Origin: Magnetococcales bacterium
GTDB taxonomy: Bacteria > Pseudomonadota > Magnetococcia > Magnetococcales > DC0425bin3
Assembly (NCBI GenBank): GCA_015231175.1
Contig: JADGBZ010000005.1
Span: forward strand, 1 to 64,000
DNA: 64,000 nucleotides
Reading direction: 5' to 3'
The notes below the pieces were generated by a model. That model saw only the letters and a program-made list of their open reading frames with translations. It was not told the DNA's origin and made no database searches. Made by a program: the position numbers and the translations under genes. Shown here in pieces: positions 16,141-39,327 of the stretch. How positions within the stretch are numbered: the first letter of the stretch is position 1; each line of letters opens with the position of its first letter.

Positions 16141-17193
16141 ATGCCACTGGTATCGATGCGGCAACTGCTGGATCACGCTGCGGAACACGATTACGGGCTC
16201 CCGGCCTTCAACGTGAACAACATGGAGCAGGCCCGTGCCATCATGCGGGCCGCGAACGATACGGACAGCCCGGTGATTTTGCAAGGAACGACCTCGGCGC
16301 GGCAGTATGCGGGGGAGGTGTTCCTGCGCCATCAAGTCCTGGCGGCCCTGGAGCTGTACCCGCACCTTCCCGTGGCTGTCCACCAGGATCACGGTCAGAC
16401 GCCCCATGTCTGCCAGGCGGCCATTCGGAGCGGATTTTCCAGCGTCATGATGGATGGATCCTTGCTGGAAGATGGCAAAACACCCTCCACGTATGCCTAT
16501 AACGTAGAGGTGACACGAAAAGTGGTGGAGCTGGCCCATGCGGTCGGCATTTCGGTGGAAGGGGAGCTGGGGGTCGTAGGTCCATTGCAAAGTGGTCACC
16601 CCACTGGAGACCAGGGCGGTCCGACTGCCAAGAACGACATGTTGACCGATCCAGAAGAGGCGGCGGCCTTCGTGAAGGCGACACATGTGGACGCCCTGGC
16701 CATCGCCATCGGCACCTCCCATGGCGCTTACAAATTTACCGCCAAGCCCACCAATGACCAGTTGCCCATCAGCCGCATCAAAGATATCGCCGCTCGCATA
16801 CCCAATACCCACCTGGTGATTCATGGGGGCTCCACGGTGTCGGCGGACCTGGTGGCCATCATCAATGAGGGCGGCGGGGCCATCCCTGAAACCTACGGGA
16901 CGCCTTTGGAGGAGATCATCGTCGGCATCAAATACGGCGTGCGCAAGGTGAACATCGACACCGATCTGCGCCTGGCCATGACCGGGGCTATCCGGCGGTA
17001 TTTGTCCACCCATCGCCTGGAGTTTGATCCCCGCCAATACATGCGTCCAGCCGAAGATGCTGCCTACGCCGTTTGCAAAGCCCGTTACGAGGCCTTTGGT
17101 TCGGCAGGTTGGGGTTCCGGTATCAAGCCGATCACCCTGGAACGCATGGCCGAGCGGTATGCCGTTGGCATTCTGAACCCGCGTGTCGCCTGA
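16141..17193 (+). CDS. fba: Class II fructose-1,6-bisphosphate aldolase (Calvin-cycle subtype)
   Basis: 350 residues, full length for the zinc-dependent class II aldolase of CbbA/Calvin-cycle type. Visible signatures are [11 protein letters not shown] near the N-terminus, VHQDHGQ (zinc/active-site His region), [24 protein letters not shown] and KVNIDTDLR. It interconverts fructose-1,6-bisphosphate with dihydroxyacetone phosphate and glyceraldehyde-3-phosphate in the cytosol. The ATG at 16141 has a strong GAGGAGG site. The stop codon lies inside the first copy of a 66-bp tandem duplication that also carries the start region of the next gene. Calvin-cycle genes (rbcL, prk) are not in the window, so a carbon-fixation role is only suggested by subtype. 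Confidence 0.93.
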
Positions 17194-17314
17194 ACGAACC
17201 AAAATGTGGTGTGTGCGGTTGCCCGTTGGGTTGGCTCTGCCGGTCTTCGTGTTGCCTGAACGAACCAGAATGTGGCGTGCGCGGTTGCCCGTTGGGTTGG
17301 CTCTGCTGCTCTTC
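17183..17314 (+). repeat. 66-bp tandem duplication at the aldolase / caspase-like gene junction
   Basis: Copy 1 is 17183-17248 and copy 2 is 17249-17314. Aligned by eye they differ at 6 of 66 positions. The unit is a multiple of three, so the downstream reading frame passes through both copies. It repeats 22 codons that include an ATG and a hydrophobic signal-peptide-like stretch (RLPVGLAL). The aldolase stop codon lies in copy 1. The number of differences implies an old duplication, not an assembly error. Confidence 0.92.
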
Positions 17315-19856: not shown

Positions 19857-21905
19857 GTGGATGTCCCGGATGGCGATTGTACCATGAGTGCTCTCGAAGT
19901 TGAGCTTTCCGTCTGCGCTGGTCTCTTTGCGCTTGGGTTGTCCGCTTTGGGCGCCAAGAGGAGCCCTTTCTGGTTTCGCTTGGTTTATGGCGGGTCGGCG
20001 TTGCTGAGCTTTGTTGCCGTTGTCGTCAGCCTGGTTTTTCTTTTGTCTGACCCGGTCCCCCTGAAGAGCGGTTTCCACCTGGGGTTGCCCTGGATTGGCG
20101 TTCAATGCCGGATGGATGCGCTGGGAGCGTTCTTTTTGCTGGTCGTCAACTTTGGCGGCGCCATGGCAAGTTTGTATGGCGTTGGCTACGGGGCGCACGA
20201 GGAGCGGCCCTTGCGCATCCTGCCCATGTATCCGGTCTTCCTGGCCGCCATGAACCTGGTCATCGTTGCAGACGACGCCTTTTCGTTCCTGTTCGCCTGG
20301 GAGTTCATGTCTCTGAGCTCCTGGAGCCTGGTTCTGGTGAACCATCGGTTGCAGGAGAATCGCAAGGCTGCTTTCGTCTACCTGGTCATGGCCAGTTTTG
20401 GCACGATGATGCTCCTGTTCGCTTTCGGCATCATGGCCGGCGACAAGGGGGACTACGCCTTCGATACCATGCGTGGCGGCACGCTGCCTGATTGGGGCGT
20501 CGCCGTGGTGCTGGTCCTGACACTTCTGGGTGCGGGTTCCAAGGCCGGTCTGGTCCCTCTGCACGTCTGGCTTCCCCTGGCGCATCCGGCGGCTCCGAGC
20601 CATGTGTCGGCATTGATGAGCGGGGTCATGACCAAGGTGGCGGTCTACGCCGCCATGCGCATCCTTTTCGATCTCTCCGGTCCCAATCCCTGGTGGTGGT
20701 CGGTCCCGGTGATGGTCACCGGCGGCGTCACGGCGTTTCTGGGTATCCTGTATGCGATCATGCAAAGTGATATCAAACGATTCCTTGCCTACAGCACCGT
20801 GGAGAACATTGGCATCATCTTCATCGGCATCGGGCTGGCCATGGCATTCCAGGCCAACGGACATGCCGAGGCCTCTGCCGTAGCCATGACAGCGGCCCTG
20901 TTTCACACTCTGAACCACTCGTTGTTCAAAAATCTTCTCTTCATGGGGGCCGGTGCGGTCCTGCATGCCACGGGTCTGCGTGATATCGAACGATTGGGTG
21001 GTCTGATCCACCGCATGCCCCGCACGGCGTTTTTGTTTCTGGTGGGAGCGGTCTCCATCTCGGCGTTGCCCCCCTTCAACGGGTTTGCGTCGGAATGGAT
21101 GACCTTCCAGGCCATTCTGGCCAGTCCGGAATTTCCCCAGCCCTTGCTGAAATTTTTGGTTCCCCTGGTTGGCGCCGGGTTGGCGCTGACTGCTTCATTG
21201 GTCGCCACCGGCTTTGTCAAGGTTTATGGCACTGTCTTTTTGGGTCGTCCCCGGACGGATATGGCCAGGAACGCCCACGAGACCGATCCATTCTCCCTGA
21301 GTGCCATGGCCATATTGGCTGCCCTGTGCCTTTTGGTCGGCGTTGTGCCGACCCTGGTCGTGAAGGTCATCCTTGCAGTTCCCAGCCAACTGCTTGGGGC
21401 AACCCTGTCCAGCGGCTTGGGCGACTCCACCTTCGGTTGGATGTTCCTGGTGCCTTTTGGAGTGACCAAGAGTTCCTACAACAGCTTGGCCATCCTGTTT
21501 TTTGTTGCCCTGTCGTCCAGCATGGCGGCCTTGTTCATCCACAAGCGCGCCTCCAACGTTGTCCGGAAGGGGCCAGCCTGGGATTGCGGGTTTCCCGACC
21601 CTTCGACCATGAGCCAGTATACCGGCAACAGTTTCAGCCAGCCCATTCGTCGGGTGTTTGCAAGCGTTTGCTTTCGGGCGCGCGAAAAGGTTTTCATGCC
21701 GCGCCCGGGTGATCCCCGACCCGCCAGCCTGACCGTGACCATGCTGGATCCGATATGGGAGTTTATTTTTGCGCCGCTGGGGCGTTTTGTGGTGAGGTTT
21801 TCGATTCGGGCAGACAGGATGCACTTTTTGACCATACGTCAATTTCTGTCGATCATGTTTGCCGCGTTGATCCTTCTGCTCACGGTGGTTGCCATATGGC
21901 GATGA
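19857..21905 (+). CDS. hyfB: HyfB-like proton-antiporter subunit of an Ehr/hydrogenase-4-type complex
   Basis: 682 residues, the length of HyfB/HycC. It is a polytopic membrane protein with at least 14 hydrophobic segments and the antiporter-like core of NuoL/M/N and MrpA/D: MSLSSWSLVLVNHR, GAGSKAGLVPLHVWLPLAHP with conserved Lys and His, and DIKRFLAYSTVENIGI. It is predicted to form part of the proton- or sodium-translocating membrane arm. The start is GTG 19857 (GGAG very close) or ATG 19884 (no clear site); the choice is open. It is the first gene of a tightly packed six-gene operon and overlaps hyfC by 10 bp. Confidence 0.9.
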   Translation: MDVPDGDCTMSALEVELSVCAGLFALGLSALGAKRSPFWFRLVYGGSALLSFVAVVVSLVFLLSDPVPLKSGFHLGLPWIGVQCRMDALGAFFLLVVNFGGAMASLYGVGYGAHEERPLRILPMYPVFLAAMNLVIVADDAFSFLFAWEFMSLSSWSLVLVNHRLQENRKAAFVYLVMASFGTMMLLFAFGIMAGDKGDYAFDTMRGGTLPDWGVAVVLVLTLLGAGSKAGLVPLHVWLPLAHPAAPSHVSALMSGVMTKVAVYAAMRILFDLSGPNPWWWSVPVMVTGGVTAFLGILYAIMQSDIKRFLAYSTVENIGIIFIGIGLAMAFQANGHAEASAVAMTAALFHTLNHSLFKNLLFMGAGAVLHATGLRDIERLGGLIHRMPRTAFLFLVGAVSISALPPFNGFASEWMTFQAILASPEFPQPLLKFLVPLVGAGLALTASLVATGFVKVYGTVFLGRPRTDMARNAHETDPFSLSAMAILAALCLLVGVVPTLVVKVILAVPSQLLGATLSSGLGDSTFGWMFLVPFGVTKSSYNSLAILFFVALSSSMAALFIHKRASNVVRKGPAWDCGFPDPSTMSQYTGNSFSQPIRRVFASVCFRAREKVFMPRPGDPRPASLTVTMLDPIWEFIFAPLGRFVVRFSIRADRMHFLTIRQFLSIMFAALILLLTVVAIWR

Positions 21906-22852
21906 TTGTCGAATTCATGGCCCAGGGTTTTCAGATTGCCCTGGTGCTCATGGTCGCTCCTTTGGTCATTGGGGTGGTGCGCAAGGTCAAGGCCCGTTTG
22001 CTGCGCCGCCGGGGTCCGCCAGTTTTGCAGCCCTACCGCGATCTGGCCAAGCTGCTCGCCAAAGACGCCCTGATGGCGGAGAATACCTCCTGGATCTATC
22101 GAACGGTTCCCTACATTCTGTTCGGGGTGACCTGGGTGGCAACCGCATTGATCCCGACCTTTACGACGAGCCTGACCTTTGGCTGGGCTGCCGATCTGGT
22201 TGCCATCGTTGCTCTGCTGGCAACGGGCCGGTTCTTTTTGGCCCTGGCCGGCATGGATGTCGGCACCAGTTTCGGCGGTATTGGTTCTTCGCGGGAGATG
22301 ATGTTTGCCTCGTTGGCCGAACCAGCCATGCTGATGGTCGTTTTTACCGTCTCCATTCTGGTTGGTACGACCCAGCTCTCCCAGATTGCCCAGTTTTTAA
22401 TCATTGAACACGTCGGGTTGCGGGTTTCTCTGGGACTTGCCCTCATGGCGTTGATCATTGTCGCCATCGCGGAAAATGGTCGCATTCCCGTGGACAATCC
22501 CGCCACCCATTTGGAACTGACCATGGTCCATGAAGCCATGGTTCTGGAATACTCCGGGAGGCATCTGGCCATGATCGAAATGGCCGCAGCCTTGAAACTG
22601 GTTCTTTTCCTCTCCATGGTTGCCAGCCTCTTCGTTCCTTATGGCATGGCGATCCCCGGTGGAAGCGTGCTGGATCTGGGTGTCGGCGTAGCCACTTATC
22701 TGGGCAAATTGCTGGTTGGCGCCGTCTTGTTGGCCATAGGGGAGACGGTTGTCGCCAAAATGCGGGTGTTTCGTGTGGCGGAATTTTTGACGATCGCCCT
22801 GGTCCTGGGAATTCTGGCAGTGGTTCTTCTGTTCGTCACGATAGGTATTTGA
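21896..22852 (+). CDS. hyfC: HyfC-like (NuoH-like) membrane subunit
   Basis: 318 residues from ATG 21896, overlapping the end of hyfB. It has eight predicted membrane helices and belongs to the NuoH/HycD/HyfC family. Signatures include GPPVLQPYRDLAKLLAKD, GSSREMMFASLAEPAM, AENGRIPVDNPATHLELTMVHEAM and LEYSGRHLAMIEMA. In complex I and membrane-bound hydrogenases this subunit joins the peripheral arm to the ion-pumping arm. Its 3' end lies in the first copy of a 65-bp tandem duplication, which leaves this reading frame intact and separates its stop from hyfE by one extra repeat unit. Confidence 0.92.
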   Translation: MAMIVEFMAQGFQIALVLMVAPLVIGVVRKVKARLLRRRGPPVLQPYRDLAKLLAKDALMAENTSWIYRTVPYILFGVTWVATALIPTFTTSLTFGWAADLVAIVALLATGRFFLALAGMDVGTSFGGIGSSREMMFASLAEPAMLMVVFTVSILVGTTQLSQIAQFLIIEHVGLRVSLGLALMALIIVAIAENGRIPVDNPATHLELTMVHEAMVLEYSGRHLAMIEMAAALKLVLFLSMVASLFVPYGMAIPGGSVLDLGVGVATYLGKLLVGAVLLAIGETVVAKMRVFRVAEFLTIALVLGILAVVLLFVTIGI

Positions 22853-22949
22853 GAATGAATCTCAACGCGGATGTGACCCACCTGGTGGTTCTTCTGTTCG
22901 TCACGATAGGTATTTGAGGATGAATCTCAACGCGGATGTGACCCACCTG
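22820..22949 (+). repeat. 65-bp tandem duplication at the hyfC-hyfE junction
   Basis: Copy 1 is 22820-22884 and copy 2 is 22885-22949, differing at one base (GAGAATG in copy 1, GAGGATG in copy 2). Each copy holds the last codons and stop of hyfC followed by the start of hyfE. The event duplicated a complete stop/start junction while leaving both genes whole. Confidence 0.95.
22855..22917 (+). CDS. 20-codon chimeric mini-ORF created by the duplication
   Basis: ATG 22855 is the hyfE start in repeat copy 1. It reads ten hyfE codons, passes into copy 2 and continues with the hyfC C-terminal codons (VVLLFVTIGI) to the duplicated TGA at 22915-22917, two bases before the real hyfE ATG. It may be translated as a coupling relay between hyfC and hyfE. 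A function of the peptide itself is unlikely. Confidence 0.4.
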   Translation: MNLNADVTHLVVLLFVTIGI

Positions 22950-23657
22950 CTGGCCGGATCGACTTTGATGGTCAGTTTTGTCCTGCTCTACCAGACCCGT
23001 ATGTACGGGATTCTGAACGCCTTTGCCATGCAGGCGCTTCTGTTGGCTCTGGCGGTGGCATGGCAGGCCAGGGTCCAACACGCCCCCCATCTCATGGTGA
23101 CGGCGTTCATGGCGTTGGTGGTCAAGGCAGGGGTCATCCCCTGGGTGTTGCGTATCATCATTCGCAGGCTGGGCATTCAGCGCAACATAGAGTCGGTGGT
23201 TGGCGTTGGCTCGACGTTGTTGGTGGCGGTGTTCCTGACCATGTTGGCCGTTCTGATCGTGGTGCCCATGACTTCGGCCCATGCCGAGGCGACGCGCCAG
23301 GATCTGGCCTTCGCTCTGGCCGTCATCCTGTTGGGCATCCTCATGATGATCACCCGTCACAACGCCATCAGCCAGATAGTCGGCTTCATGTCCCTGGAGA
23401 ACGGTTTGATCCTGGCTGCCACCGGGGCCAAGGGGATGCCCCTGGTGGTGGAGGTCAGCGTCGCTTTTTCCGTGTTGATTGCTTTTCTGGTCTTCGGGAT
23501 ATTCATATTCCGCATCCGCGAGAGATTCGATTCCGTGGATATCGGCAATCTGGAAAAGTTTCGCAAAGGTCGCATGGAGGGACGCTATCAGTCGGGGGAC
23601 GCTCTTTCGGCCCCGGATATTCCCTCCATGGATTCCGTGCGGGGGGACCGTCCATGA
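22920..23657 (+). CDS. hyfE: HyfE-like membrane subunit
   Basis: 245 residues from ATG 22920 in the second repeat copy, with GAGG just upstream. It has about six hydrophobic segments and resembles HyfE, the NuoK/MrpC-related subunit of hydrogenase-4-type complexes (AFMALVVKAGVIPWVLRII, SQIVGFMSLENGLILA). In NuoK-type proteins the Glu in a comparable membrane helix takes part in ion translocation. The C-terminal ~45 residues are charged and cytosolic. The stop overlaps the start of hyfF by 4 bp. Confidence 0.88.
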   Translation: MNLNADVTHLLAGSTLMVSFVLLYQTRMYGILNAFAMQALLLALAVAWQARVQHAPHLMVTAFMALVVKAGVIPWVLRIIIRRLGIQRNIESVVGVGSTLLVAVFLTMLAVLIVVPMTSAHAEATRQDLAFALAVILLGILMMITRHNAISQIVGFMSLENGLILAATGAKGMPLVVEVSVAFSVLIAFLVFGIFIFRIRERFDSVDIGNLEKFRKGRMEGRYQSGDALSAPDIPSMDSVRGDRP

Positions 23658-25120
23658 ATCTGCCGGAGACTTCCCTGATCACGCCGGAGATGGCGCTACA
23701 GGCCCTTCTCTATATTCCCGGGGCGACCGCCGTTGTCCTCTTGATGGTTCCAAGTTACCGGGTGGGCTCCTGGATCAACGTCCTCTCCATGGCCATTACC
23801 TTCATGATGGGCCTGTTTCTGTTTTTCACGCCCCATCTCTCCCATGGTTTTTTGTTCATCGATGATTTCAATGTTTACCTGATCGCCCTGAATACTTTCG
23901 TCGGATTGACCACGAGCATCTTCAGTGCGACCTACATTGCCTACGAATTGGAGGTGGGACACCTGACCCCCATGCACCTCCGTTTTTACCATGCCATGTA
24001 CCAGGCGTTGATGTGCGCCATGAATCTTGCCCTTTCCAGCAACAACATCGGTTTGATGTGGGTGGGGCTGGAAGTGGCCACGGTTTCGACGGTGGTCATG
24101 GTGGGGATCTATCGGACCCCCGAAGCCATCGAGGCGGCGTGGAAATATTTCATCCTGGGCAGTGTTGGCATTGCCCTGGCTTTTTTTGGGACCATCCTCA
24201 TCTACCTTGTGGCCCAACCGGTGGTGGGTGAGGGTATGGCCGCCATGACCTGGACCAAGCTTGTGGTCTCTTCCGGTCGCATGGATCCCAATCTTCTGAG
24301 CCTGGCCTTTGTGTTTTTGTTGGTTGGTTTTGGCACCAAGGTGGGTCTGGCGCCTCTGCACGCCTGGTTGCCGGATGCCCATTCAGAGGGTCCGACACCC
24401 ATCTCCGCCGTACTCTCCGGCTTGCTTCTGAACGTGGCTTTGTATGCCGTCTTGCGGTTCAAGATGATCCTGGCCGGAAATCCGCAAGCCCTGTCGCCAG
24501 GGCCGATCCTGATGTTCATGGGGCTCCTCTCCCTGCTCTTTGCTGCATTCATGCTTTATCAGCGCAGGGATATCAAACGGTTGTTTGCCTACTCCTCCAT
24601 CGAGCACATGGGGATCATTACCTTCGCTTTTGGCATGGGCGGGGCGTTGGCCAACTTTGCTGGCCTGCTTCATATGACTATGCACAGCCTGACCAAATCG
24701 GCCATCTTTTTTGCCGTGGGGCATGTGACCCAGGCCAAAGGGAGCAAGGATATGGATGTCATCCATGGTTTGAGCGAGACCCATCCCGCTTTGGCCTGGG
24801 GGTTGTCCCTGGGCGTTCTTGCCATTGCCGGTCTGCCGCCGTTCGGCATCTTTGCCAGCGAATTTGTCCTGGTGACCACCACTTTCGCCCGTGAGCCGCT
24901 GTTGGCTATCATCTTGATGGTGGGTCTGTTGGTTGCCTTCGGCGCCCTGCTGTTCAGACTCCAGGAGATCGTGTTCGGGGAACCTGTTGGTCCCTCCATG
25001 CCGCTTCAGGCTTCACTCGTACCTCTGTTTGCGCATTTGGCCCTTATACTGTGGGCGGGTTTACACCTTCCGGACAGCTTGGGTGTCTGGTTTGCCCGTG
25101 TGGCCGACCTTCTCGGATAG
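23654..25120 (+). CDS. hyfF: HyfF-like proton-antiporter subunit
   Basis: 488 residues from ATG 23654, overlapping the hyfE stop. It is the second NuoL/M/N-like antiporter subunit of the complex, with conserved features LMWVGLEVATVSTVVMVG, GTKVGLAPLHAWLPDAHSE (Lys and His in the channel helices) and DIKRLFAYSSIEHMGI. About 14 membrane helices are expected. Together with HyfB, two antiporter modules would make up the ion-pumping arm, as in E. coli hydrogenase-4. It is followed after 7 bp by the large-subunit-like gene. Confidence 0.92.
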   Translation: MNLPETSLITPEMALQALLYIPGATAVVLLMVPSYRVGSWINVLSMAITFMMGLFLFFTPHLSHGFLFIDDFNVYLIALNTFVGLTTSIFSATYIAYELEVGHLTPMHLRFYHAMYQALMCAMNLALSSNNIGLMWVGLEVATVSTVVMVGIYRTPEAIEAAWKYFILGSVGIALAFFGTILIYLVAQPVVGEGMAAMTWTKLVVSSGRMDPNLLSLAFVFLLVGFGTKVGLAPLHAWLPDAHSEGPTPISAVLSGLLLNVALYAVLRFKMILAGNPQALSPGPILMFMGLLSLLFAAFMLYQRRDIKRLFAYSSIEHMGIITFAFGMGGALANFAGLLHMTMHSLTKSAIFFAVGHVTQAKGSKDMDVIHGLSETHPALAWGLSLGVLAIAGLPPFGIFASEFVLVTTTFAREPLLAIILMVGLLVAFGALLFRLQEIVFGEPVGPSMPLQASLVPLFAHLALILWAGLHLPDSLGVWFARVADLLG

Positions 25121-25127
25121 GGGTGAG

Positions 25128-26678
25128 ATGATGCCTACGCCAGCTTGTGAGATTGCCAACCAGATCCAAACTGTCGGCAAGCCGGTGCCGGGGCATCATC
25201 CCTGGCCGCGTTTTCAGGTCGACGCTGCCACCTGGACCTTGTTCGGCAAGGCCCTGGGGGAGGGATTGTGCAGCCTGTTTGCCTTGTGGGCCGATGCCCA
25301 GGAGGTCCATGCTGCCGTCATGGGACTGCCGGAAGGGGCGATGATCCTTTCGGTGCCGGTGCAGGATGGGGGATATCCGGCCTTGACCCCTGATCACCTG
25401 CCAGCCTTGCGCCTGGAACGGACCGTCCGCGACATGCATGGGCATATTCCCCGTGGTTTGTTGGATGAGCGGCCATGGTTGAACCATGGCGTATGGACAC
25501 AACAGCCCCGCCCCGAGGCCCCGCCTTGCCGTTTGGCCTCGGCAACGGCCTACCCTTTTCTTCCGATCCATGGGGAGGCCCTGCACCAGATTCCGGTTGG
25601 TCCGGTGCATGCGGGTATCATCGAGCCGGGCCATTTTCGTTTTACGGCCAATGGCGAAACCGTGGTGCGTCTGGAGGAGCGTCTGGGCTATGTCCACAAG
25701 GGTGTGGAACGCCTCCTGGAGGACAGGGATATTCCAGAAGCCGCCCGTATCTGCGGGCGCATCTCCGGTGACAGTACCGTCGCTTACGCGGTGGCCTTTG
25801 CCCGGGCCGTTGAGGCGGCCTTGGGCATGCACCCTTCCAGTCGGGCGCATGCCTTGCGGGGCCTGATGGCCGAACTGGAGCGCATGGCGAATCATTGCGG
25901 AGACATTGGATTCATTTGCAACGATGCTGCCTTTTCCATTCTTCAGGCCCATTTTTCCATCCTGCGGGAAGAGGTTCTGCAAATCGCCCACCATTGCTTT
26001 GGTCACCGGTTGATGATGGATCGGGTCGTGCCTGGAGGCGTCACCGTCGATCTTCCCCCCGATGGCAAGCAGCGCCTGCTCGCCTTCCTGGAGAGTTTTG
26101 GCAAACGATTCGATCACCTGATGGCCGTTTACGATACCGTCCCCTCCTTGTTGGATCGTACCCGGGCGACGGGAAATCTGGTCGAAGATTTGGCGCGCCA
26201 ATTTGCCCCCGGCGGGTTTGTAGGCAGGGCTTCCAACCGTGCATTCGATGCCCGGCGTCATTTGGCTTATCCCCCCTACGACACGCTGCATTTTGACGTG
26301 CCGCTGCGCCAGGAGGGAGATGTCCATGCCCGGCTTATGATTCGAGCCGAGGAGGTCCAGCAAAGCGTGAGCATGATTCGGCAGATTCTGGAAAATCCTG
26401 GCGAAGGGCCGTTGCAGGTGCCCGTCATCGCCGAAAATAGAGAAGGGGAGATGATGCCTTCCCTCCACGAGGGGTGTGGCGTCGCCGAGGCGTTTCGGGG
26501 CGATGTGTTCATCTGGGTCCGTCTGGGGCCTGATGGCCGGATTTTGCGCTGTCACCCCCGAGACGCATCCTGGTTTCAATGGCCGCTTCTGGAGGCCTGT
26601 ATCGAGGGCAATATTGTCGCCGACTTTCCGCTCTGCAACAAATCGTTCAACTGTTCCTACTCCGGCCATGACCTTTGA
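25128..26678 (+). CDS. HyfG-like (NuoCD-like) large subunit lacking a complete NiFe site
   Basis: 516 residues from ATG 25128 (GGGGTGAG upstream). The N-terminal ~120 residues are NuoC-like; the rest resembles NuoD/HycE/HyfG, with YVHKGVERLL, RMANHCGDIGF and RASNRAFDARRHL. The two cysteine pairs that hold NiFe in hydrogenases are incomplete. The first is Cys209-Gly-Arg-Ile212, lacking the second Cys and followed by SGDS instead of the usual His context. The C-terminal pair is Cys509-Ser-Tyr-Ser512. One Cys of each pair survives, so hydrogenase activity is not expected. This fits the energy-converting hydrogenase-related (Ehr) group. The true substrate may be a quinone-like or other redox partner. 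Confidence 0.87.
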   Translation: MMPTPACEIANQIQTVGKPVPGHHPWPRFQVDAATWTLFGKALGEGLCSLFALWADAQEVHAAVMGLPEGAMILSVPVQDGGYPALTPDHLPALRLERTVRDMHGHIPRGLLDERPWLNHGVWTQQPRPEAPPCRLASATAYPFLPIHGEALHQIPVGPVHAGIIEPGHFRFTANGETVVRLEERLGYVHKGVERLLEDRDIPEAARICGRISGDSTVAYAVAFARAVEAALGMHPSSRAHALRGLMAELERMANHCGDIGFICNDAAFSILQAHFSILREEVLQIAHHCFGHRLMMDRVVPGGVTVDLPPDGKQRLLAFLESFGKRFDHLMAVYDTVPSLLDRTRATGNLVEDLARQFAPGGFVGRASNRAFDARRHLAYPPYDTLHFDVPLRQEGDVHARLMIRAEEVQQSVSMIRQILENPGEGPLQVPVIAENREGEMMPSLHEGCGVAEAFRGDVFIWVRLGPDGRILRCHPRDASWFQWPLLEACIEGNIVADFPLCNKSFNCSYSGHDL

Positions 26679-36808: not shown

Positions 36809-36903
36809 TCTTGCTGAAGGCCACCAGACCCGGTACGACCGTGAACACAGACGATTCTTGCTGAAGGCCACCAGACCCGGTACGACCGTGAACACAGACG
36901 ATT
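36809..36903 (+). repeat. 47-bp perfect tandem duplication inside the transposase pseudogene
   Basis: Copies 36809-36855 and 36856-36902 are identical, with one further shared base at 36903. Because 47 is not a multiple of three, the event moves the reading frame and splits the DDE domain after VNTDD. Removing one copy joins VNTDD to WSRYLPL in the expected frame. Confidence 0.95.
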
Positions 36904-37582: not shown

Positions 37583-37654
37583 GAAGCAAAGGAAGGGAAC
37601 GATGTGCGGGCATTCGCTTGGTTTGCGCCTAAGTCGTCAAAGGACACGATTTTC

Positions 37655-39253
37655 ATGAAAATCCTCTTCGTCCGCAACTCCTGTCTGCTGATGTCCCATT
37701 CGCAATTGAGCTACGGATTGGGCGTCATCGCGACCATGGCCCATCAGGGGGGGCATACGGTCCAGGTTCTTGATAATAACACCCATTATCGTTTCTTCGA
37801 GATGAAGGATGTCGAAAAACGCATCCGTTCCTTCCTCCCGGATGTGTTGGCCTACAGCATCACCATGCATAATGCATTCGAGACCTATCGTCAGGTCAGT
37901 CACTTCAGGAAGCTCTTTCCCGGCATGATCATCATCGCCGGTGGCATCCACATGCGCCACTGTACCATGGAGGCCCTGCAGCATGGGATTCACGCCGTGG
38001 TCGAGCAGGAGGGCGAACTGGTCATTCTGCCCCTGCTTGCCCACTTGACGGGCCGCACCCCGGAAACTTTTGTCAGCGGACTGGAGTCTGTTGCCGGGGT
38101 TTCGTTCGTGCGCCGTGATGGTACTTTTCACCGGGCTACCGAGTTCCCTGCCCTGGAGGATCTGGACGCCGTTCCGATCGTCGATTACGACCTGTTCAAC
38201 CTGTCGGACTACATCAAGACTGGTCGGGAGGTCGGCAACTTTTACATCAACGGTCAGAGGGGATGTCCCTTCAAATGTACTTTTTGTGCCGATGAGGTCC
38301 AGCTTGCCGACAAGCGCAGCGCATCAGGGGAGTGGATGTTCAACAACGTTGCTGCCCTTTATCAAAAATATGGGGTCCGCTATATCCTGTTGGCGGATAA
38401 CAACATCACACTCCACCAGGACCGACTGATCGACTTCTGCAACCGGATGATCGAATCGGGATTGAACGAGAAGGTGACCTTCTCCAGCCAGACCACCACT
38501 CGTTTCAAGCTGAGTGATGAACTGGTTGCCTTGATGAAACGAGCCGGGTTTGTCCGCATCAACTTTGGCCTGGAACGCCTGACGCCCTTTGCCCTCGCCT
38601 CGATCAAGAAAGTCCAGCATCTGGATAACGTCCACCGTGTGCTCTCCCTGGTGGCCAAGCATGGAATCCAACCATCGATTTTCGTCATGATCGGCTTCCC
38701 CTTCGATAATAAAAATCTGATCGAAGAGGAAAGGCAACTCTTTCTTGACATCACCCGCTATACCAAGCGCTTGTTCATTTCAATCCTGGCCCCTGCGCCC
38801 GGTACTGCCTACTATGATGACAATCCCGGGATCAAGGAATGGTATCTGGATGAGAAGGAGTATCTGATGCTCCGGGCGCATTTTACCAACGTTCTTGATA
38901 TGCATACATTTCATACCATCAAGAAAAATTTTTTTGGCCTTCCCCCCGAGACCACGGCAAGCATAGAGGAGTTTTACAATTTTTTCAAAAAGTATTGCTA
39001 CGGATCCTTCATTGTCCGACCGAGTATCCTGACAATGATCATGATATGGCTGGATTTCGGTCTGGCACGTGTTTCCCAAGGGCTGTTTATGGTCTCACCA
39101 GCGCTGGAGTTTGCCATATTCAAACGGATCCGCGGGCTGCGCTACTACTTTGGAACCCTCTTCTTCTCGGCCAACATGGAGAGACCTGAAGCCGGCAGTC
39201 CAGAGGATACGTCCTCCACGGCTTTCCCCTCGTCCACGACGCAGGCGGATTGA
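37655..39253 (+). CDS. B12-binding-domain radical SAM protein
   Basis: 532 residues from ATG 37655, with AAAGGA about 10 bp upstream. The N-terminal ~130 residues are a cobalamin-binding Rossmann-like domain (MKILFVRNSC, IIIAGGIHMRH, AVVEQEGE). The radical SAM core begins with the 4Fe-4S motif CPFKCTFC (~residue 205), followed by LLADNNITLHQDRL and INFGLERLTP. The C-terminal region has amphipathic or membrane-associated segments. Class B/BchE-like members modify lipids, antibiotics, nucleosides or cell-surface molecules; the substrate is unknown. The last ~17 codons (DTSSTAFPSST) lie in a 62-bp tandem duplication, so the natural C-terminus may have been altered. Confidence 0.88.
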   Translation: MKILFVRNSCLLMSHSQLSYGLGVIATMAHQGGHTVQVLDNNTHYRFFEMKDVEKRIRSFLPDVLAYSITMHNAFETYRQVSHFRKLFPGMIIIAGGIHMRHCTMEALQHGIHAVVEQEGELVILPLLAHLTGRTPETFVSGLESVAGVSFVRRDGTFHRATEFPALEDLDAVPIVDYDLFNLSDYIKTGREVGNFYINGQRGCPFKCTFCADEVQLADKRSASGEWMFNNVAALYQKYGVRYILLADNNITLHQDRLIDFCNRMIESGLNEKVTFSSQTTTRFKLSDELVALMKRAGFVRINFGLERLTPFALASIKKVQHLDNVHRVLSLVAKHGIQPSIFVMIGFPFDNKNLIEEERQLFLDITRYTKRLFISILAPAPGTAYYDDNPGIKEWYLDEKEYLMLRAHFTNVLDMHTFHTIKKNFFGLPPETTASIEEFYNFFKKYCYGSFIVRPSILTMIMIWLDFGLARVSQGLFMVSPALEFAIFKRIRGLRYYFGTLFFSANMERPEAGSPEDTSSTAFPSSTTQAD

Positions 39254-39327
39254 TCGGCGTACACAAGGATACGTCCTCCACGGCTTTCCCCTCGTCCACG
39301 ACGCAGGCGGATTGATCGGCGTACACA
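39204..39327 (+). repeat. 62-bp perfect tandem duplication at the 3' end of the radical SAM gene
   Basis: Copies 39204-39265 and 39266-39327 are identical. The radical SAM stop codon is in copy 1, so copy 2 is non-coding spacer. The next ~90 bp up to the convergent membrane-protein gene show no gene or clear terminator. Confidence 0.95.

Follow-up and report, generated by a model that had tools for sequence, protein, structure and literature searches.

What becomes of two adjoining operon genes when the stretch that holds the stop of one and the start of the next is copied in tandem? The question is posed by hyfC and hyfE of a Magnetococcales bacterium, between which the window (the whole 64,000-nucleotide stretch of DNA analyzed here) carries a short repeat. 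Our answer, which we consider likely as a whole, is that the duplication is recent and near-neutral, that it arose by a homology-poor process, and that coupling between the two genes would be preserved by a small relay ORF that the duplication itself created.

A 65-bp unit present twice

The original prediction placed a 65-bp duplication at 22820–22949; its coordinates, unit length, copy number (two) and identity (64/65) were all confirmed (Table 1). The units lie head to tail, and their single mismatch falls directly before the ATG, where copy 1 has A and copy 2 has G. In 50 order-1 Markov versions of the complete window, adjacent units of 40–150 bp reached at most 0.634 identity, which excludes chance as the origin of the pair.

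Table 1. Features at and around the duplicated hyfC–hyfE junction (positions in the window).
Feature	Position	Strand	Basis or content
hyfB	19857..21905	+	NF005086, 809.9 bits
hyfC, NuoH-like membrane subunit	21755..22852	+	PF00146, E 1.6e-37
Copy 1 of 65-bp unit	22820..22884	+	Final 33 nt of hyfC including stop, then a 2-nt gap and the opening 30 nt of a hyfE start
20-codon chimeric relay ORF	22855..22917	+	Ten HyfE N-terminal codons, ten HyfC C-terminal codons, TGA
Copy 2 of 65-bp unit	22885..22949	+	Provides end of relay ORF and real hyfE start
hyfE, 245 aa	22920..23657	+	NF008556 hydrogenase 4 membrane subunit, E 1.9e-22, 80.2 bits (under curated cut-off of 136)
hyfF	23654..25120	+	NF005043, 774.5 bits (scored on longer ORF 23060–25120)

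Given that the source assembly consists of 175 contigs, the repeat might be an artefact of fragmented assembly. This is very unlikely, because the copies differ at one base, and because tandem duplications elsewhere in the same genome and in its congener G002 have many unit lengths and include several diverged pairs. In addition, 11 of the 15 non-dispersed duplications in G002 (defined below) have a unit length divisible by three, a pattern that selection on genuine coding sequence would be expected to leave; for the own genome the figure is 3 of 8.

The genes around the duplication run in the order hyfB, hyfC, hyfE, hyfF, a NuoD-like (hyfG-like) large subunit and a NuoB-like small subunit, and presumably encode a complex resembling the energy-converting hydrogenase-related complexes. 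The hydrogenase-like large subunit (24933–26678) contains no CxxC motif, and the complex may therefore not be a NiFe hydrogenase. HyfE gave no Pfam match at 0.001. The true start of hyfC may be the ATG at 21896, which overlaps the hyfB stop. The HyfC (365 aa) and HyfE ORFs are identical in length to those of G002. At the downstream end of hyfE, the in-frame hyfF ATG at 23654 shares four nucleotides with the hyfE stop (ATGA).

A chimeric ORF between hyfC and hyfE

The unit spans the entire junction. Copy 1 therefore still supplies the normal end of hyfC and copy 2 the normal beginning of hyfE, which leaves both proteins unaltered. What remains is a surplus ATG in copy 1 and a surplus hyfC end in copy 2, and because the unit length is 2 modulo 3 and the gap is 2 nt, the former runs in frame to the latter. 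The predicted peptide, MNLNADVTHLVVLLFVTIGI, joins MNLNADVTHL (the start of HyfE) to VVLLFVTIGI (the end of HyfC). Its ATG at 22855 follows the hyfC stop (22850–22852) after 2 nt, and its own stop at 22917 is followed, again after 2 nt, by the hyfE ATG at 22920. This is precisely the 20-codon HyfE–HyfC chimera, ending two bases before the genuine hyfE ATG, that had been described. An in-register chimera is a one-in-three outcome for any duplication across a 2-nt junction, and the relay ORF is most likely a by-product of the duplication.

To place these distances in context we compiled the spacing between hyfC and hyfE at 82 loci: 80 from genome contigs, that of G002 and that of the window. The 80 are the best of 578 protein matches, and the sample is accordingly uneven, with many Alphaproteobacteria by record title. 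The distance from the hyfC stop to the closest in-frame hyfE start lies between −4 and +3 nt in 78 of the 82 loci, the four exceptions being −53, +10, +20 and, for the window, +61. If the start nearest the expected position is taken instead, 75 loci fall within this range, and the window stands at +67 (the hyfE ATG). With the relay ORF in place, both junctions of the window are at +2.

The same range recurs in work on translational coupling. According to PMC12548453, coupling is optimal from −4 to +3 nt and declines roughly 3- to 10-fold as the spacing approaches about +40; for the six gene pairs tested in PMC10666635, it is reported to be nearly gone at about 20 nt. Contrary studies are also described in PMC12548453, one in which coupling is undiminished up to +25 nt and another in which it operates over +50 to +350 nt. 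Loss of coupling above 20–40 nt in most published work makes a relay by termination–reinitiation plausible, and the geometry seen in the sequence is sound; if the longer reach is right, no relay would be necessary.

The sequence of events that we propose is as follows. A short tandem duplication would have taken in the hyfC stop/hyfE start junction. A ribosome ending hyfC would then restart 2 nt on, at the relay ATG, make a throw-away peptide of 20 residues, stop, and restart 2 nt further on at hyfE. Relay translation of this kind would keep the synthesis of HyfE near what may have been its former level.

Does hyfE need the relay? The duplicated unit restores to hyfE the 35 nt that lie 5′ of its ATG, including an AGGT element, weakly Shine–Dalgarno-like and read by eye, which precedes each ATG by 8 nt. 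hyfE might thus be initiated afresh with no need of a relay, and the duplication could be real while the relay ORF is irrelevant. Opening the region around the hyfE start is predicted to cost 8.1 kcal/mol in the present state, against 6.2 when the flanks are joined as a single copy (the relay ATG gives 7.9), a shift of only about 2 kcal/mol that is in keeping with independent initiation. Set against this are the tight spacing found in nearly all surveyed loci and the four-nucleotide overlap between hyfE and hyfF, which together suggest coupled translation along the operon. On balance we regard independent initiation as quite possible, at somewhat under an even chance.

For the original prediction, which had the operon keeping its translational coupling through the mini-gene, the consequence is mixed: the geometry is present and a tight junction is the rule among the surveyed loci, but a need for the relay does not follow, given a single-copy junction in G002, the one-in-three expectation and the upstream region that copy 2 supplies of its own. 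Nor does the locus make a strong natural test of coupling, although it had been described as an uncommon one. The test is a weak one, because reinitiation, unfolding and fresh initiation all predict that HyfE is made.

The junction in related genomes

hyfE was found in four of the 48 genomes of the order searched: the own genome, G002, G036 and G011. Of the two congeners, only G002 yielded the genes; the other, G001, is 76% complete. When the junction was searched against G002 the two halves of the query overlapped by 68 bp on the target and no second copy was present, so that two adjoining copies here correspond to one in the congener, with a 2-nt gap (TAA-AA-GTG). The junction reads TAA-CC-ATG in locus L007, which we take to be G036, while in G011 a GTG start shares 4 nt with the stop (read by eye). 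A plasmid collection held 48 records with a similar hyfC–hyfE stretch, none matching 80% of the query at a single location.

One of the 65 sites distinguishes the two copies, whereas copy 1 differs from G002 at 19 and copy 2 at 20. Provided that the copies have not been homogenized, the duplication is therefore young relative to the split between the own genome and G002. The A that G002 carries at the differing site weakly favors copy 1 as the apparent ancestral state. A single substitution between copies carries no information on selection; we consider the duplication probably recent and neutral or nearly so.

These comparisons also bear on whether the mini-gene could be under selection, as a leader or as a regulatory ORF adjusting how much HyfE is made, in the manner of the intergenic small ORF mgtQ. 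The relay ORF is well formed, with a tight stop and start at both ends. It is, however, present in only one of the four genomes of the order that have hyfE (it is absent from G002, G036, as L007, and G011), the copies are nearly identical, and the ORF follows from the unit length modulo 3. We judge selection for a leader or regulatory ORF very unlikely, and retain the by-product interpretation.

In synthetic biology, bicistronic design (BCD) places a short leader cistron before a gene of interest. The short leader ORF is common to both arrangements; here it is natural, lies within an operon and itself follows a tight stop–start junction. With the coupled gene pairs of PMC12548453 and PMC10666635 the locus shares stop-to-start distances of −4 to +3 nt and genes that encode subunits of the same membrane complex; it differs in having two such junctions one after the other, separated by a 20-codon chimeric ORF that duplication of the junction created. 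According to PMC8092293, mgtQ is a small ORF between mgtC and mgtB that acts through stem–loops and ribosome-destabilizing residues. Both it and the relay ORF occupy an operon gap, yet the relay peptide is a chimera of its neighbors. Among publications linking Magnetococcales with tandem arrangements, or treating coupling, tandem duplication and small ORFs of intergenic gaps, titles and abstract openings describe no relay ORF made by duplication. The locus provides a clean natural case in which a tandem duplication across a stop–start junction can be harmless and leave a small ORF behind, and junction duplication may offer operons a path to new mini-genes.

An excess of short tandem duplications

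How did the duplication arise? Exact homology beyond the ends of the 65-bp unit is 0 bp, with an interrupted TGG just outside; the end repeats expected of slippage between pre-existing direct repeats were not found at this unit. The most likely origin would be whatever homology-poor process lies behind the other 40–150-bp tandem duplications of the own genome and G002.

To count these, sequence was scanned for tandem units of 40–150 bp with at least 90% identity, and units with further copies in the same sample were dropped as dispersed. The own genome (G000) has 8 non-dispersed duplications in 464 kb, four of them in the window; G002 has 15 in 400 kb, G001 one in 80 kb and G003 one in 130 kb. 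The family total is 25 in 1,073,790 bases, compared to one (in G026) in 1,035,280 bases from 16 other genomes of the order and none in the 1,322,113 bases of the 80 hyf loci. Dropped as dispersed were three in G000, two in G002, one in G003, two in G004 and one in G008; including these the counts are 31 versus 4. When the window, chosen for its duplication, is left out, the comparison is 21 versus 1 (binomial p = 4.6e-6, events treated as independent).

The excess is carried by two genomes of one genus, G000 and G002, which hold 23 of the 25; once the window is set aside, the own genome contributes just four in 400 kb. Several control genomes are thinly sampled (19 kb for G009), and the stretches come from low-numbered contigs and are thus non-random. 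Within this scope the lineage seems to make short tandem duplications unusually often. By the rough count of the scan, copy number is below 2.5 in 17 of the 25, the other 8 being longer arrays. Exact boundary homology beyond the unit is 0–4 bp in 22 of the 25 and 11, 16 and 32 bp in the others, among them two arrays with over three copies; for diverged pairs these values are lower bounds, because the count ends at the first mismatch.

Several candidate causes were examined and rejected. Ku-dependent end joining finds no support, Ku (PF02735) having been detected in none of 41 genomes, the own included, by a profile that was positive in 1 of 14 control genomes (Bacillus subtilis). MutS is present in 40 of the 41, again including the own, which speaks against loss of mismatch repair; RecJ and ExoVII are both present in all four family genomes. 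Loss of SbcD is insufficient alone: the four family genomes fall below the SbcD cut-off, but so do G013, G014, G015, G020 and G024, with no duplications in 422 kb. A fixed unit length, as in the target-site duplications of mobile elements, is ruled out by the range of 42 to 117 bp among the 25 family units.

Short, homology-poor tandem duplications are known from eukaryotes, where they are of patch-mediated or polymerase-theta type. Short tandem units and little boundary homology are common to both; here the lineage is bacterial and no Ku was found. For Salmonella, PMC3411829 gives junction microhomology of at least 11 bp for confirmed spontaneous duplications, a value set partly by the cut-off of the method.

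A broader reading is that the lineage possesses a Ku-independent process generating mostly two-copy duplications, mostly of 40–90 bp, with near-zero boundary homology, and that those spanning junctions are tolerated because, given the stop–start spacing in coupled genes, relay ORFs can maintain translation through the operon; new small ORFs would be seeded between operon genes in this way. We offer this only tentatively and consider it rather unlikely in its entirety. Even so, an excess of short duplications in a lineage with no detected Ku is the wider lead, and possibly the unusual part of what is found here.

Other repeats in the window and genome

The window contains further tandem duplications. 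At 17182–17313 a 66-bp unit is repeated with 60 of 66 bases matching (TRF extends the repeat to 17316), where the ORF of a class II fructose-bisphosphate aldolase ends and that of a caspase-domain protein begins. Because this unit is 0 modulo 3 the downstream ORF extends upstream, repeating what we read as a signal-peptide-like start. The matching segment of G002 is shorter and has no clear second copy, in a poor alignment.

A perfect 47-bp duplication at 36809–36903 lies amid overlapping broken ORFs; from their translations the region looks like a decayed transposase gene. Another, of 62 bp and also perfect (39204–39327), covers the 3′ end and stop of a gene (37604–39253) that reads in translation as radical-SAM-like. 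It has no match in G001, G002 or G003 and is by itself uninformative on polarity.

Finally, three dispersed repeats of the own genome (L095:18218, L096:12053 and L103:9583) have in common a stretch like GGGCTTCGCCCCGAACCCC and also occur in tandem; their units have 18, 104 and 62 further matches, respectively, in the 464-kb sample.
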